DNA from: Paenibacillus albicereus
Lineage (GTDB): Bacteria; Bacillota; Bacilli; Paenibacillales; Paenibacillaceae
Assembly (NCBI RefSeq): GCF_012676905.1
Contig: NZ_CP051428.1
Span: forward strand, 3,868,001-3,932,000
Direction of reading: 5' to 3'
DNA: 64,000 nucleotides
The notes below the pieces were generated by a model, which ran no database searches, was not told where the DNA came from, and saw only the letters and a list, made by a program, of their open reading frames with translations. Both the position numbers and the translations under genes were made by a program. Shown in pieces: positions 41,618-60,939 of this stretch. The stretch's first letter is position 1. Each line of letters begins with the position of its first letter.

Positions 41618-41753
41618 CGTTCCCACTCTCCTCGTCCATCCGGGCTGATTCCACCATCTTACGGGATCAAGATGAACGAAAAATGAACGAGGCCGCGCTC
41701 AAAACGAACCAATTGGGGCAGCCGCCGAAATCCGCAGAACGCTGGACCATCCA

Positions 41754-42012
41754 AAACCTGCACCCGCTTCGCAGAGCCGGGACTCAATTGAAACCTGCAC
41801 CCGCTTCGCGAAACGCTGGAGCATTCGAAACCTGCACCCGCTTCGCTGAGCCGGGACTCAATTGAAACCTGCACCCGCTTCGCGGAGCCGGGACTCAGTT
41901 GAAACCTGCACCCGCTTCGCGAAACGCTGGATCATTGGAAACCTGCACCCGCTTCGCAGAACGCTGGATCATTCGAAACCTGCACCCGCTTCGCGGAGCG
42001 GGGACTCGTTCC
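41754..42012. repeat. Island I: 37-bp tandem repeat, seven copies
   Basis: Units start with AAACCTGCACCCGCTTCGC at 41754, 41791, 41828, 41865, 41902, 41939 and 41976, an exact 37-bp period. The second half of the unit alternates between two versions (ending CAATTG or CATTCG). Confidence 0.96.
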
Positions 42013-42125
42013 GATCTCCCTGGAGCCCAGATTCCTTCGATCTCCTTCTCTTAAACGGAAGGAATCCGGCCTCCAAGGGAACCGCTGCCGCTTCTCCACG
42101 AGCCCCCGTCCGCTACGCTCTTCGG
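42005..42125. repeat. Island I: conserved block A
   Basis: Shared with 58905-59030 and, inverted, with 42830-42955 and 59440-59560. It contains TCCCTGGAG ... CTCCAAGGGA and ACCGCTGCCGCTTCTCC (42081-42097). Internal inverted halves could fold into a hairpin. No coding frame is credible. Confidence 0.85.
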
Positions 42126-42300: not shown

Positions 42301-42745
42301 TAACTCGATTTATTCGACTTACCGGCTCGACTTCGCTTCCCCGAGTACCCGTTAACTCGATTTATTCGACTTACAGGCTCGACTTCGCTCCTCCGAGCAC
42401 CCGTTAACTCGTTTTATTCGACTTACCGGCTCGACTTCGCTCCTCCGAACACCCGTTAGCTCGATTTATTCGACTTACCGGCTTGACCTCGCTCCTCCGA
42501 ACACCCGTTAACTCGATTCTTTCGACTTACCGGCTCGACCTCGCTTCTCCGAACACCCATTAACTCGATTCTTTCGACTTACAGGCTCGACTTCGCTCCT
42601 CCGAGCACCCGTCAACTCGATTTACTCGACTTACAGGCTCGACTTCGCTTCTCCGAACACCATTAACTCGATTTACTCGACTTAACAGTTCGACTTCGCT
42701 CCTCCGAGCACCCGTTAGCTCGATTTGTTCGACTTATTGGCTCGT
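42301..42745. repeat. Island I: 52-bp satellite, about 8.5 copies
   Basis: Units of the form TAACTCGATTTATTCGACTT + 32 bp begin at 42301, 42353, 42405, 42457, 42509, 42561, 42613, 42664 and 42716. Copies differ by a few bases and there are no spacers. Stops occur in the frames, so it is not coding. Confidence 0.96.
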
Positions 42746-42794: not shown

Positions 42795-42829
42795 CAAGTA
42801 ATGAGGGACAAGGCAGAGCGAAGCGAGCC

Positions 42830-42955
42830 GATGCCTTTCGGAGAAGCGGCAGCGGTCCTCTTGGAAGACGGATGGCCTCCGTATAGGAGGTCGGGAAATC
42901 AGGGCATCCGGCTTCCAGTGGAATCGGAGAAAGGCTCGGCTCGTGCAGCGGCCTT
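42830..42955. repeat. Island I: block B (block A inverted)
   Basis: Carries GGAGAAGCGGCAGCGGT at 42840-42856, the exact complement of the 17-mer in block A, then TCCTCTTGGA and a second half CCGGCTTCCAGTGGAATCGG. It nearly matches block B of island II (59440-59560). Confidence 0.88.
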
Positions 42956-57421: not shown

Positions 57422-58639
57422 ATGAAATATCTATTTAGGGAGGATTGGAATGAATTCATATTCATGGTATATTGTTTAACGTGCATCATTAGCTTTCTAG
57501 CTGGAGTGAACCTAACCTTGGATGATCAACTGCTCGACTTCACCCGGGCGCGCTGGAACCGGATGCTGATGAACGGCTTCTGGTGCCTGCTCGTCTTGAT
57601 GGTCATATTGGAAGGCCTGTTCCTGATCTTCATCACTCCGCTTGCTCCGGATGTTTTTTTGCGGCGGTACATGCTGCTGCCGACGTCCCTCCATCTGAGC
57701 GTGCTCGTGCTGACGGAGCTATGCCTCCGCTTCCTGGAAGAGCGGCTGCGCGACTATTCGCTGCTGGCTGCCTCCTCGCTGCTGACGTTCATCATCGTCG
57801 ACATCAACATCGAGATCGGCTACATCATCCCGGCGCTGTTCCTGCCCGTGCTCGTCTCGATCTTCTACTTCTCATCGCGCAAGCTCATCGCCGCCGCGAT
57901 CCTATCGCTGACGACGCTGTACAGCCTGTACTTCTTCAACCGGAGCCTGGATATCTCCGTCGTCGGCATCCTGTCGCTGACCGCGATGCTGGGCGCGTTC
58001 TGCCTCATCGCCTGGGGCGTCATCTCGCGGGGCAAGGAGATGCGCAGCTACTACATCCACGCCGCCAAGTCCAACCAGGAGCTGCTTGTGAAGAACATCC
58101 TGATGGACAAGCTGGCCAAGACCGATGCGCTGACCGAGCTGTACAACCATATCACGTTCCACGAATACCTGGACAAGCTGATCGAGCATCACGACGCGAC
58201 GTCGATGCCGCTGCAGCTTGCCCTGATCGATATCGACAACTTCAAGTCCGTCAACGACCAGTTCGGCCATCGCGCCGGCGACTCCGTGCTCAAGCAGGTC
58301 GCCGACCTCGTCCGCTCGCAGGCCGGCATGAACGATTTCGTCGCCCGCTACGGAGGCGAGGAGCTGGCGCTCATCTTCACGGACAAGAGCGCCGACAAGT
58401 CGCTGCAGCTGCTGGAGACGATCCGCCACAACATCGAGGCGGCTTCGTACGAGGAGCTCGGCTCGCGCAAGATCACCGTCAGCATCGGCTTCGCGGATTA
58501 CCTCGGCGAAGGCAAGGAGCAGTTTTTCGTCCGCACCGACCAAGCTCTCTACGCCGCCAAGTCGCAGGGCAAGAACCGCATCGTCACCGCTGCCGCGGAG
58601 CCCGATCCCGGCTCGAAGTCCCGTTTCGCCTGGCAATAA
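57422..58639 (+). CDS. Membrane-bound GGDEF diguanylate cyclase
   Basis: 405 residues: five or six membrane helices in the first 200, then a GGDEF domain ('LAKTDALTELYNHITFHEYL', 'LIDIDNFKSVNDQFGHRAGD', signature RYGGEELALIF). GGEEL with the Asp/Asn context intact suggests an active enzyme making c-di-GMP; no EVE-type I-site was seen. The start has only a weak GGTGG site. A better site (GGGAGG) serves a 9-codon out-of-frame reading at 57450-57479, which might be a leader or show a mis-set start. Confidence 0.88.
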   Translation: MKYLFREDWNEFIFMVYCLTCIISFLAGVNLTLDDQLLDFTRARWNRMLMNGFWCLLVLMVILEGLFLIFITPLAPDVFLRRYMLLPTSLHLSVLVLTELCLRFLEERLRDYSLLAASSLLTFIIVDINIEIGYIIPALFLPVLVSIFYFSSRKLIAAAILSLTTLYSLYFFNRSLDISVVGILSLTAMLGAFCLIAWGVISRGKEMRSYYIHAAKSNQELLVKNILMDKLAKTDALTELYNHITFHEYLDKLIEHHDATSMPLQLALIDIDNFKSVNDQFGHRAGDSVLKQVADLVRSQAGMNDFVARYGGEELALIFTDKSADKSLQLLETIRHNIEAASYEELGSRKITVSIGFADYLGEGKEQFFVRTDQALYAAKSQGKNRIVTAAAEPDPGSKSRFAWQ

Positions 58640-58678: not shown

Positions 58679-58711
58679 CGTCGGCTTCGCCGAGCGGGCG
58701 GTTGAGTTTCG

Positions 58712-58917
58712 AAACCTGCGCTCGCTGCGCGGAGGGGCCAAGGTAACCGTATGAACCCTGTATCCGCTGCGCGGAGGGGCCAAGGTAACGTATGAAACCT
58801 GCATCCGCTGCGCCGAAGGGCCAAAGTAACGTATGAAACCTGCATCCGCTGCGCCGAAGGGCCAAAGTAACGTATGAAACCTGCATCCGCTGCGCGGAGC
58901 GGGAACTCGTTCCGATC
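58712..58917. repeat. Island II: 41-bp tandem repeat, five copies
   Basis: Units beginning AAACCTGCATCCGCTGCGC at 58712, 58754, 58795, 58836 and 58877. The first 19 bases match the 37-bp unit of island I with three changes; the remaining part (ending AAAGTAACGTATG) differs. Confidence 0.95.
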
Positions 58918-59030
58918 TCCCTGGAGCTCGGATTTTTTTGAATTTATTATTCGCAATGAAAAAATCCGCCCTCCAAGGGAACCGCTGTCGCTTCTCCACG
59001 AGCCCCCGTCCGCTCCGCTCTCCGGTTTCA
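58905..59030. repeat. Island II: conserved block A
   Basis: Matches block A of island I: CTCGTTCCGATCTCCCTGGA, then CTCCAAGGGAACCGCTGTCG and CTTCTCCACGAGCCCCCGTC. The middle is a hairpin with T7 and A6 loops (GGATTTTTTT / AAAAAATCC). Confidence 0.9.
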
Positions 59031-59060
59031 TTTAGGACCGCTCGCCAGCACATCTCTTGC

Positions 59061-59335
59061 GAAGGTAGTCCTGACCCCGTCACAAGCGCAAATGAGCTTA
59101 CGCTATGCTCGCGAAGGTAGTCCCGACCCCGTCACAAGGGCAAATGAATTTTCGCTACGCTCGCGAAGGTAGTCCCGACCCCGTCACAAGGGCAAATGAA
59201 CTTTCGCTACGCTCGCGAAGGTAGTCCCGACCCTGTCACAAGGGCAAATGAACTTTCGCTACGCTCGCAAAGGTAGTCCCGACCCCGTCACAAGAGCAAA
59301 CGGGCCTTCCCTACGCTCGTGACGGAAGTCACGAC
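59061..59335. repeat. Island II: 52-bp satellite, about 5.3 copies
   Basis: Units of form GAAGGTAGTCCCGACCCCGT + 32 bp begin at 59061, 59113, 59165, 59217, 59269 and 59321 (partial). The period equals that of the island I satellite but the sequence is unrelated. Confidence 0.96.
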
Positions 59336-59439
59336 GGGGGGATGGCATGTACCATGTTCCGCCTTCCGGTTCTATGGAAGGCGTCCCTCCCCCAAAAAAA
59401 AGGGGTGGGCGGGCAAGTGGACAAAGCAAGCGAAGCGAG

Positions 59440-59560
59440 GCGATGCCTTTCGGAGAAGCGGCAGCGGTCCTCTTGGAAGACGGATGGCCTCCGCATAGGA
59501 GGTCAGGGGATCAAGGGCATCCGGCTTCCAGTGGAATCGGAGAAAGGCTCGGCTCGCGCA
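59440..59560. repeat. Island II: block B (block A inverted)
   Basis: GGAGAAGCGGCAGCGGT at 59452-59468, TCCTCTTGGAAGACGGATGG and TCCAGTGGAATCGGAGAAAG. It is almost identical to 42830-42955 and is the inverted counterpart of block A. Confidence 0.9.
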
Positions 59561-59750
59561 GCGGGTTTCTTGTCCTAAAAAAGTTCCGGCTGCTGCCGAG
59601 AAAGGCTCGGCTTGCGCAGCGGGTTTCTCGTACTAAAAAAGTTCCGGCTGCCGCCGAGAAAGACTCCGCTCGCGCAGCGGGTTTCTCGTACTAAAAAAGT
59701 TCCGGCTGCCGCCGAGAAAGACTCCGCTCGCGCAGCGAACTCCTTATCCG
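59553..59750. repeat. Island II: 58-bp tandem repeat, about 3.3 copies
   Basis: CTCGCGCAGCGGGTTTCT begins units at 59553, 59611, 59669 and 59727 (partial). The GCAGCGGGTTTC word is the complement of the start of the AAACCTGC repeats, so this array is a second expansion of the element's end, in opposite orientation. Confidence 0.93.
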
Positions 59751-59805: not shown

Positions 59806-60939
59806 TCAGTTCTGCATGACGAAATCGCGCTCCGCATGCTCGCCCTCGCGGAACACGCGAAGGATATCATAGCGGGTGTTGCGCTGCGCGGGAACCTTGC
59901 CCGCCTCGCGGATGTACTGCAGGATCAGCTCGATGTTGACCTTGTGCGTCGTGCCTGCGGCGGAGACGACGTTCTCCTCCAGCATCGTGCTGCCGAAGTC
60001 GTTGACGCCGTACGACAGCGACTGCTTGCCGATCTCCGGTCCCATCGTCACCCAGCTCGCCTGCATGTTCGGGATGTTGTCCAGCATGATCCGGTTGATG
60101 GCGACCATCTTGAGGTACTCCTCCGGCTTGGACTTCTCCCGCTTGAGGTTCGTGTTGTCCGGCTGGAACGGCCAGGTGATGAACGCCAGGAAGCCGGGCG
60201 ACGGATAGCCGAGCTCCTTGCACTCGTCCTGCGCCTCGCGCACGCGCAGCATGTGCAGCGCGCGCTCCTCCATCGACTCGCCGAAGCCGTACACCATCGT
60301 CGCGGTCGTGTTCATGCCGTTGCGCCAGGCCGCCTTCATCGTATCCATCCAGTCCGTCCAGGAGCCCTTGAGCCGGCTGATCTTGCGGCGCGTCCGGTCG
60401 TCGAGGATCTCGCCGCCGCCGCCCGGCAGCGAGTCGAGGCCCGCCTCATGCAGCTGCCGCAGCGTCTCGTCGAGGGAGAGGCCGGAGAGCACTTTCATCT
60501 TTTGAATTTCGGCCGGGGAGAAGCTGTGCATCGTGATGTCCGGGAAGCGCGCCTTGATCTTGCGAAGGATATCGAGATAGTACTCGAAAGGCAAGTCCGG
60601 GTTGACCCCGCCCTGCATCAGCACCTCGTCGCCGCCCACATCGGACAGCTCCTGGATCTTCTGCAGGATCGTCTCGTCCGGCAGCACGTAGCCTTCCTTG
60701 GAGCCCGGGGGACGGTAGAATGCGCAGAAGCGGCAATACACGTCGCACACGTTCGTATAGTTGATGTTGCGGCCGATGTTGAAGGTGACGATCGGCTCCG
60801 GATGGCGCCGCCTCATGATCTCGTCTGCGGCCCGTCCCATTTTTTCGATCTCGTCGGACTCCAAAAGAACGATGCAGTCCTCGAGGCTGATCCGCTCGCC
60901 CTGCAGCGCCTTATCCAGCACGCGGTCCACTTGTTGCAT
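59806..60939 (-). CDS. mqnC: Cyclic dehypoxanthinyl futalosine synthase MqnC
   Basis: 377 residues. Radical SAM cluster in 'CDVYCRFCAFYRPPGS', then 'LMQGGVNPDLPFEYY', 'PGGGGEILDD' and 'ITWPFQPDNTNLK', typical of MqnC. It cyclises dehypoxanthinyl futalosine in the futalosine route to menaquinone. GGAGG precedes the ATG. The other mqn genes are not next to it. Confidence 0.96.
   Translation of the reverse strand: MQQVDRVLDKALQGERISLEDCIVLLESDEIEKMGRAADEIMRRRHPEPIVTFNIGRNINYTNVCDVYCRFCAFYRPPGSKEGYVLPDETILQKIQELSDVGGDEVLMQGGVNPDLPFEYYLDILRKIKARFPDITMHSFSPAEIQKMKVLSGLSLDETLRQLHEAGLDSLPGGGGEILDDRTRRKISRLKGSWTDWMDTMKAAWRNGMNTTATMVYGFGESMEERALHMLRVREAQDECKELGYPSPGFLAFITWPFQPDNTNLKREKSKPEEYLKMVAINRIMLDNIPNMQASWVTMGPEIGKQSLSYGVNDFGSTMLEENVVSAAGTTHKVNIELILQYIREAGKVPAQRNTRYDILRVFREGEHAERDFVMQN

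Follow-up and report, generated by a model that had tools for sequence, protein, structure and literature searches.

The repeat islands of Paenibacillus albicereus are tentatively read as composite non-coding structures, in which an inverted pair of a structured element, X, frames a core of hairpin satellites and the spacing of the hairpins is constrained (probability roughly 0.4). Some constraint on unit length is needed, because the core has been swapped while the period was kept, both within the genome, as a sequence-only reading of this DNA had claimed, and at the same locus of a sister species. X would supply the islands with conserved ends and, probably, with homology through which they recombine with each other. 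The families of satellites, M1 to M4, would be amplified by ordinary recombination or slippage and would replace one another. The constrained quantity would be the distance from hairpin to hairpin, 51-52 bp or about five helical turns. Its most likely cause is a putative factor that may bind successive hairpins or palindromes at that spacing, on DNA or on the transcript.

The window is the whole stretch of 64,000 nucleotides analysed (G000:C1:3868001-3932000) from the single-contig genome of P. albicereus (G000, 5.17 Mb). Island II (58711-59750) is non-coding and lies between convergent GGDEF and MqnC-like genes (Table 1). All modules that the sequence-only reading had assigned to it were found in place: the 41-bp array, block A, the 52-bp array, the hairpins, the inverted block and the 58-bp array. 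Blocks A and B do form an inverted pair, but block B is a homologous, diverged inverted copy of block A and not a second, unrelated block. The motif GGTAGTCCCGACCCC recurs in the core at distances of 52, 52, 52 and 52 bp. Hairpins resembling the one at 59360-59383, with changed stems, were seen by eye in regions L011, L012 and L020. Island I shows the same order of modules, i.e. 37-bp array, X, 52-bp array, hairpins and inverted X, as had been read from the letters; an array outside its inverted X was not found by TRF. Its TAACTCGATTTATTCGACTTA hairpins are all spaced 52 bp except for one distance of 51 bp. The 52-bp units of both islands are unrelated, with a best local score of 8.0 versus 7.6 ± 1.6 in 100 shuffles.

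Table 1. Modules of islands I and II and the genes next to island II (positions in the window).
Feature	Position	Strand	Evidence
GGDEF protein gene, 3' end facing island II	57422..58639	+	Pfam PF00990
MqnC/CofH-like radical SAM gene, 3' end facing island II	59806..60939	-	Pfam PF19288, PF04055
Island II outer array, A side: 41-bp unit x4.6, X outer edge and flank in tandem	58711..58899	+	TRF
Island II block A, structured X copy	58889..59019	+	profile match, covariation, covariance-model R1 match at G000:3926881
Island II core: M1 satellite, 52-bp unit x5.3, GGTAGTCCCGACCCC once per unit	59059..59335	+	TRF
Island II hairpin CGCCTTCC...GGAAGGCG between core and block B	59360..59383	+	read by eye
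Island II C-run / A-run / G-run hairpin	59385..59409	+	read by eye
Island II block B, inverted X copy	59429..59562	-	profile match, covariance-model R1 match
Island II outer array, B side: 58-bp unit x3.4	59540..59737	+	TRF
Island I outer array, base unit 37 bp	41733..42007	+	TRF
Island I block A, X copy	41988..42119	+	profile match
Island I core: M3 satellite, 52-bp unit x8.6, hairpin TAACTCGATTTATTCGACTTA	42301..42744	+	TRF
Island I block B, inverted X copy	42817..42949	-	profile match

Arrays within 1500 bp of an X copy were classed as inner or outer by the side of the nearest X on which they lie; arrays shorter than 60 bp or with periods below 15 bp were excluded, and overlapping rows were reduced to the base period. 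In the fetched regions of P. albicereus, 23/29 inner arrays have a period of 51-53 bp or a multiple of it, as do 2/33 outer arrays (Fisher p = 2e-9). The corresponding counts in P. pasadenensis DSM 19293 (G004) are 37/46 and 2/34 (p = 6e-12). The shared period is not due to chance, and an excess of 52 bp, which the sequence-only reading had proposed to look for, is present on the inner side of X in both species. Some of the inner 51-53 bp arrays have fewer than four units. Beyond the window, 28 regions of the genome were fetched; 20 of them carry 51-53 bp arrays, as do both window islands, and two of the 20 (L036 and L037) are devoid of X. Other inner periods are 15, 28 (L021), 33 (L015), 37 (L027) and 63 bp (L032) in P. 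albicereus, and 23 to 42 and 78 bp in P. pasadenensis. The clearest exception to 52 bp is the inner 63-bp unit (x4.8; L032:4688-4989, G000:4795687-4795988), which was not found in the orthologous island of P. pasadenensis.

Judged by eye, outer arrays consist largely of the outer edge of X repeated in tandem. Purging of indels within the 51-52 bp arrays had been suggested by TRF indel percentages (0.9 and 0.8% versus 2.6 and 3.1% in outer arrays). In the direct count, spacings differ by over 1 bp from the mode of their array in 10/285 cases versus 14/162 in outer arrays (p = 0.028), and by any size in 47/285 versus 34/162 (p = 0.25). Purging of single-base indels is therefore unsupported. Strong purifying selection is disfavoured, as changes in spacing, counted at any size, have about the same frequency as in the outer arrays. 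Folding of the units by the same procedure gave mean z scores of -2.2 (n = 26) and -2.7 (n = 36) versus -1.2 (n = 26) and -1.0 (n = 20) for outer units; two of four units from other species (L074, L110) remained above -2.

Orthologous islands were compared with P. pasadenensis DSM 19293, a close relative with a 98% identical MqnC. Forty of its regions were picked among the matches listed, and 17 have both flanks matching one P. albicereus region (outer sides were paired by hand). At the island II site, flanks are about 88-91% identical and both X blocks are kept; the core is M1 in P. albicereus and, in P. pasadenensis, M2 (52 bp, x5.7) plus M4 (51 bp, x4.0). Clear core swaps occurred in three of the 17 pairs, at island I (M3 versus M2 and M4), at island II and at L022 (M1 versus M2 and M4 in both). 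At least one family was kept in both species at nine (L012, L015, L016, L017, L018, L021, L025, L030 and L031), where others were often gained or lost. The remaining five (L023, L024, L026, L027 and L032) have no 51-52 bp array in one or both species. Where both species have a 51-52 bp core, the length was kept in 12 of 12 pairs. L027, the sole pair in which the inner arrays of both species all have other periods, shows 37 versus 41 bp. Most outer arrays differ in period between the species. At island II, the periods in P. albicereus and P. pasadenensis are 41/29 bp (A side) and 58/38-39 bp (B side); further ones are 35/31, 47/42, 37/36 (with 42), 34/33, 22/42, 37/38, 35/39, 83/40 and 52/162. 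An unchanged outer period (37/37) was found at island I and at L023. At the island II site, Paenibacillus humicus and P. herberti share both flanking genes, and neither X nor an array was found there. The islands thus offer loci with the same frame and a different satellite in two species, and the outer arrays serve as a built-in control for length drift. Selection on spacing and a copying ruler are therefore distinguishable by experiment.

P. albicereus harbors M1, M2 and M3; P. pasadenensis harbors M2, M3 and M4 besides two weak M1-like matches. By eye, M2, M3 and M4 are hairpins with T- or A-rich loops, and M1 has a weak dyad. Each family consists of a motif of about 20-27 bp common to its islands, and the other ~25 bp of the unit are island-specific and repeated within the array. 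Spacings of same-type hairpins in both genomes are 52 bp (253 cases), 51 bp (70), 53 bp (3) and 50 bp (2); 49, 39, 104 and 157 bp occur once each. M2 sites number 195 in P. albicereus and 275 in P. pasadenensis, and the M2 sequence was found in none of six other genomes of the genus. In L303:6812-7729 (G004:C14), an 18-fold 51-bp array is separated by over 2 kb from the region's X copy.

These families bear on an explanation without any constraint, in which the period was inherited from one spreading ancestral 52-bp array and concerted evolution changed the sequence faster than the length. Units of M3 and M4 are related (score 27 versus 8.6 ± 2.8 in shuffles), M3 and M2 are weakly similar (2 of 100 shuffles scored as high), and arrays of one family occupy many loci, all as expected from a single ancestor. 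However, no similarity by score was found between M1 and M2, M3 or M4. Most outer arrays changed their period between the sister species over the same time. In addition, Cohnella and further Paenibacillus carry 51/52-bp arrays of other sequence, and parts of PMC8161180 describe 52-nt repeats of Bacillus that lack sequence conservation. A single ancestor is difficult to reconcile with the unrelated sequences and the drift of the outer arrays, and this explanation is considered improbable.

Junctions between families also bear on how arrays arise. Those of M4 with M2 are out of register in 5/5 cases (62, 72, 126, 167 and 169 bp), and the only M4-M3 junction is at 52 bp. Junctions between M2 and M3 fall at 52 or 54 bp in 15 of 18 cases and are out of register in three (32, 84 and 184 bp). 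Exactly 54 bp separate the hairpins at nine M2/M3 junctions in the two genomes, which gives the impression of a single composite junction spread to numerous loci. Those at 52 or 54 bp may be copies of a few junctions. A continuous 52-bp lattice through a core is not supported, since the M4/M2 and three of the M2/M3 junctions are out of register. Higher-order multiples of 103-104, 155-156, 205-208 and 259 bp are common (L013, L016, L018, L019, L030 and L035), which suggests that recombination amplifies whole blocks. Since arrays grow in blocks, an established period can be preserved by recombination or slippage; the puzzle is why independent arrays start and stay at 51-52 bp.

The main rival to constrained spacing places the answer at the birth of the array. 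A copying ruler would duplicate a hairpin in the lagging-strand template, or its RNA, along with some 25 bp of adjacent DNA and would thereby yield a 51-52 bp unit from any seed. Such a ruler accords with the recurrence of the same hairpin with different spacers across islands, at 51-52 bp, and with a period characteristic of the hairpin family (M4 51 bp, M1 52 bp). It also fits the junctions of M4 with other families, mostly out of register, and the polarity of arrays with the replication fork (see below). However, a candidate enzyme is lacking. Y1 (RAYT) transposases (PF01797) were not detected in P. albicereus at E 0.001, while the control matched 5/14 genomes, and TnpB (PF07282) was not detected in G000, G002 and G003, all of which carry X. 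Reverse transcriptases do not track the arrays, with matches in six of eight genus genomes with or without M2. In P. albicereus, a reverse-transcriptase domain lies in a 631-aa open frame (G000:C1:2024919-2025752). RAYT, TnpB and reverse transcriptase as agents are thus not supported by the gene searches. Moreover, the higher-order repeats imply that recombination is enough after the first dimer. The ruler is held to be unlikely, and selection on hairpin spacing is favoured. Still less likely is its general form, in which Bacilli own a sequence-independent ruler of about 52 bp that acts on fork-oriented hairpins and founds or rewrites satellites inside the frames, with arrays outside remaining free. 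If this were true, satellites at the same locus would arise in different species at one unit length regardless of their sequence.

Arrays show a strand polarity. In P. albicereus, dnaA is located at 1069, and the terminus was assumed to lie opposite. Among the 26 typed arrays of the fetched regions, 24 have their A-loop strand, or in M1 the G-rich one, oriented in leading sense. Of the two that disagree, one (L034 4771, 53 bp, 5 mismatches) seems to be an outer array that was mistyped; it remains in the count. Another five M2 arrays lack an X copy within roughly 1.5 kb, and three of them are in leading sense (exceptions at 1.236 and 1.315 Mb), which gives 27/31 in total (p = 3e-5). In tandem-gene contexts the array strand follows the gene direction in 17/19 cases, and fork polarity is confounded because genes mostly share the direction of the fork. 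For arrays in convergent or gene-opposed contexts, two of which were judged by eye, the fork is followed in 7/9 (p = 0.18), or in 7/8 without the mistyped array (p = 0.07), neither being significant. Genes were called by an own script; of five Pfam-named genes close to the islands, it gave four the correct strand and missed the DUF2062 one. Gene calls of 60-78 aa inside the islands were removed by a 100-aa limit for the polarity counts.

The polarity of X itself was considered as a fork effect in genome G030. There, the complementary strand, rcX, is in leading sense at 38/43 sites and follows the gene direction in 30/32 tandem contexts (the gene caller's training set started with one gene). 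Both tandem pairs that run against the fork still show rcX with the gene direction. The direction of the genes is an equally good or better explanation of this polarity, and transcription can account for it because rcX follows the genes even against the fork. G030 has 101 X copies, and 77 of the 85 listed clusters are single; rcX is mostly co-oriented with the flanking genes.

A frame that imposes 52 bp on its contents, as a transposon or a large RNA with X ends, would explain the strong contrast of inner and outer periods. The arrangement in P. nanensis, with a 51-bp array inside X and a 65-bp array outside, agrees with it and is an independent replicate of the inner/outer pattern. Yet inner arrays of 51-53 bp are found in 0/5, 0/6, 1/4 and 0/0 cases in the sampled X regions of G001, G003, G007 and G030, so X does not impose 52 bp. 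None of the X copies in the 40 sampled G030 regions adjoins a 52-bp array. Regions were fetched for 40 of 85 clusters in G030, 40 of 58 in G001, 20 of 28 in G003 and 20 of 27 in G007. Inner arrays of other periods exist, and 52-bp arrays also occur outside frames, in L036 and L037 and, with no X within about 1.5 kb, in L259, L309, L311, L313 and L332. The strict version is refuted by these counts, and a frame that sets the length is the least credible of the explanations considered. Part of the sequence-only reading is lost here. Its demand for some constraint on length holds, but not the frame as the setter, and the 52-bp excess does not extend to the sampled relatives. Cores with satellites had been expected in most copies, yet in the sampled regions of G001, G003, G007 and G030 most copies have cores without them. 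Arrays of 51/52 bp with other sequences lie near the same gene in P. agaridevorans, P. nanensis, Cohnella sp. GbtcB17 and C. caldifontis; together with P. pasadenensis, this makes five of 80 loci.

The first paper of Subirana and Messeguer on 52-nt repeats reportedly appeared in J Bacteriol in 2020. In the parts available of two of their papers, the 52-nt tandem repeats of Bacillus and Paenibacillus, whose length is constant and whose sequence varies, are presented as an unsolved puzzle (PMC8161180; PMC8625621). They are said to be abundant in Paenibacillus (PMC8161180, in part), transcribed in B. coagulans (PMC8625621, in part), and partially conserved between B. coagulans strains (passages of both papers). 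The islands resemble the repeats as portrayed in those sections of PMC8161180 in several respects. The units measure 51-53 nt, islands I and II have at least four of them, and the arrays are non-coding. Several families of the same length and different sequence coexist in a genome, with the kinship of M3 to M4 and, weakly, to M2. Short signals, often with their reverse, occur in each unit, matched here by the hairpins of M2-M4 and weakly by M1. The fixed length of 52 nt itself has already been published. New are the frame of X copies, the exchange of cores at orthologous loci, the use of outer arrays as an internal control, and the strand polarity. In contrast to the 52-nt repeats in the published sections, the arrays here have a flanking frame, a core swap at orthologous loci with a free-running control, and strand polarity; in the main text of PMC8161180, as far as accessible, the word 'flanking' is absent. 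No description of X or the frame was recognised among the papers listed on Paenibacillus repeats and on 52-nt/52-bp repeats, in a search covering few subscription journals.

X is an intergenic, structured block of about 135 nt with covarying positions and three helices. P. albicereus has 45 copies in 31 clusters according to a covariance model. The 45 copies in the fetched regions were reduced to 41 by length, and 40 were aligned after a partly deleted copy from region L025 had been dropped. In this alignment, 94.6% of the cells of the three-helix structure are paired, and changes on both sides occur in 14 of 17 pairs. Doubly changed cells number 99 versus 30.8 ± 4.1 in shuffles, counts that are not probabilities because the aligned rows are related copies. 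Pairing falls to 50-57% when the partner is shifted by one column. Across the 17 pairs, A.C mismatches, which are G.U on the other strand, stand to G.T pairs at about 20 to 6, with ten A.C at one pair. This is a weak hint that rcX may be the folding strand.

By covariance model, X occurs in 29 of 59 genomes searched, P. albicereus included: in all eight of the genus (P. albicereus among them), 17/28 other members of the family and 4/23 other members of the order. A class sample gave X in 17/200 genomes, all 17 in Paenibacillaceae, with strict filters that lose weak matches. Copy numbers reach about 100 per genome among the Paenibacillaceae searched. Profile matches covering fewer than 60 profile positions were discarded, and 97 of the 101 X positions of G030 were used. 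In an Rfam scan of island I and six loci other than island II, X had no match at the gathering score; RF03538 and RF04239 overlap X, both far below it. A known Rfam RNA is thereby ruled out at the loci scanned, and X is apparently an undescribed structured element.

REP and REPIN elements, dispersed intergenic palindromes that occur in inverted pairs, are associated with RAYT transposases. X is likewise dispersed and intergenic and forms inverted pairs, but it differs in its length of ~135 nt, its three helices and the satellites of fixed period. Large dispersed intergenic repeats of the bcr type in Bacillus, as well as MITEs, occur in tens of copies and are non-coding and structured. X resembles them in copy number, structure and its non-coding, intergenic location, a comparison by description and not by sequence. 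In CRISPR arrays, a conserved palindromic part alternates with other DNA at regular spacing. The islands differ in that the ~25 bp of intervening DNA are repeated within the array and are not unique spacers.

Chi sites act in one direction, and this was used for reading the orientation of a motif in X and the outer arrays. Passages in PMC4824097 and PMC11442139 give AGCGG as the AddAB Chi site of B. subtilis. As a recombination frame, this motif would be oriented so that AddAB entering from outside switches to recombination at the core, leading to core exchange. CCGCT on the X strand occurs 21.9 and 21.0 times per kb in X and 16.0 and 20.1 times in outer arrays of P. albicereus and P. pasadenensis, respectively, versus 2.7-3.4 in flanks and 1.1-1.2 in 52-bp arrays; the counts are not independent because the copies descend from related X edges. 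It is the commonest 5-mer carried once per unit (34/64 outer arrays), and it is also denser in X of G001 (12.0 per kb) and G007 (15.1 per kb). However, it reaches only 3.0 per kb in X of G030 versus 1.0 in flanks, and is missing from the 3' half in 36/51 copies there. Once per unit, it occurs in 4/18 outer arrays of G001, G003 and G007, and the outer array of P. nanensis has none. In addition, the Chi site of B. subtilis may not be that of Paenibacillus. A Chi frame, weaker outside the genus, is highly improbable. In X and outer arrays the motif reaches about five to eight times the flank density, with the same strand of X carrying it at either end; in the satellites it falls below flank level.

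X was found as inverted pairs and also singly, and tandem copies occur in three relatives. G007 shows units of about 420 and 274 bp with three forward and then five reverse copies (G007:C1:4440563-4443745), G001 a unit of about 171 bp (G001:C1:3108773-3109442), and G030 a unit of about 226 bp (G030:C1:562685-563728).
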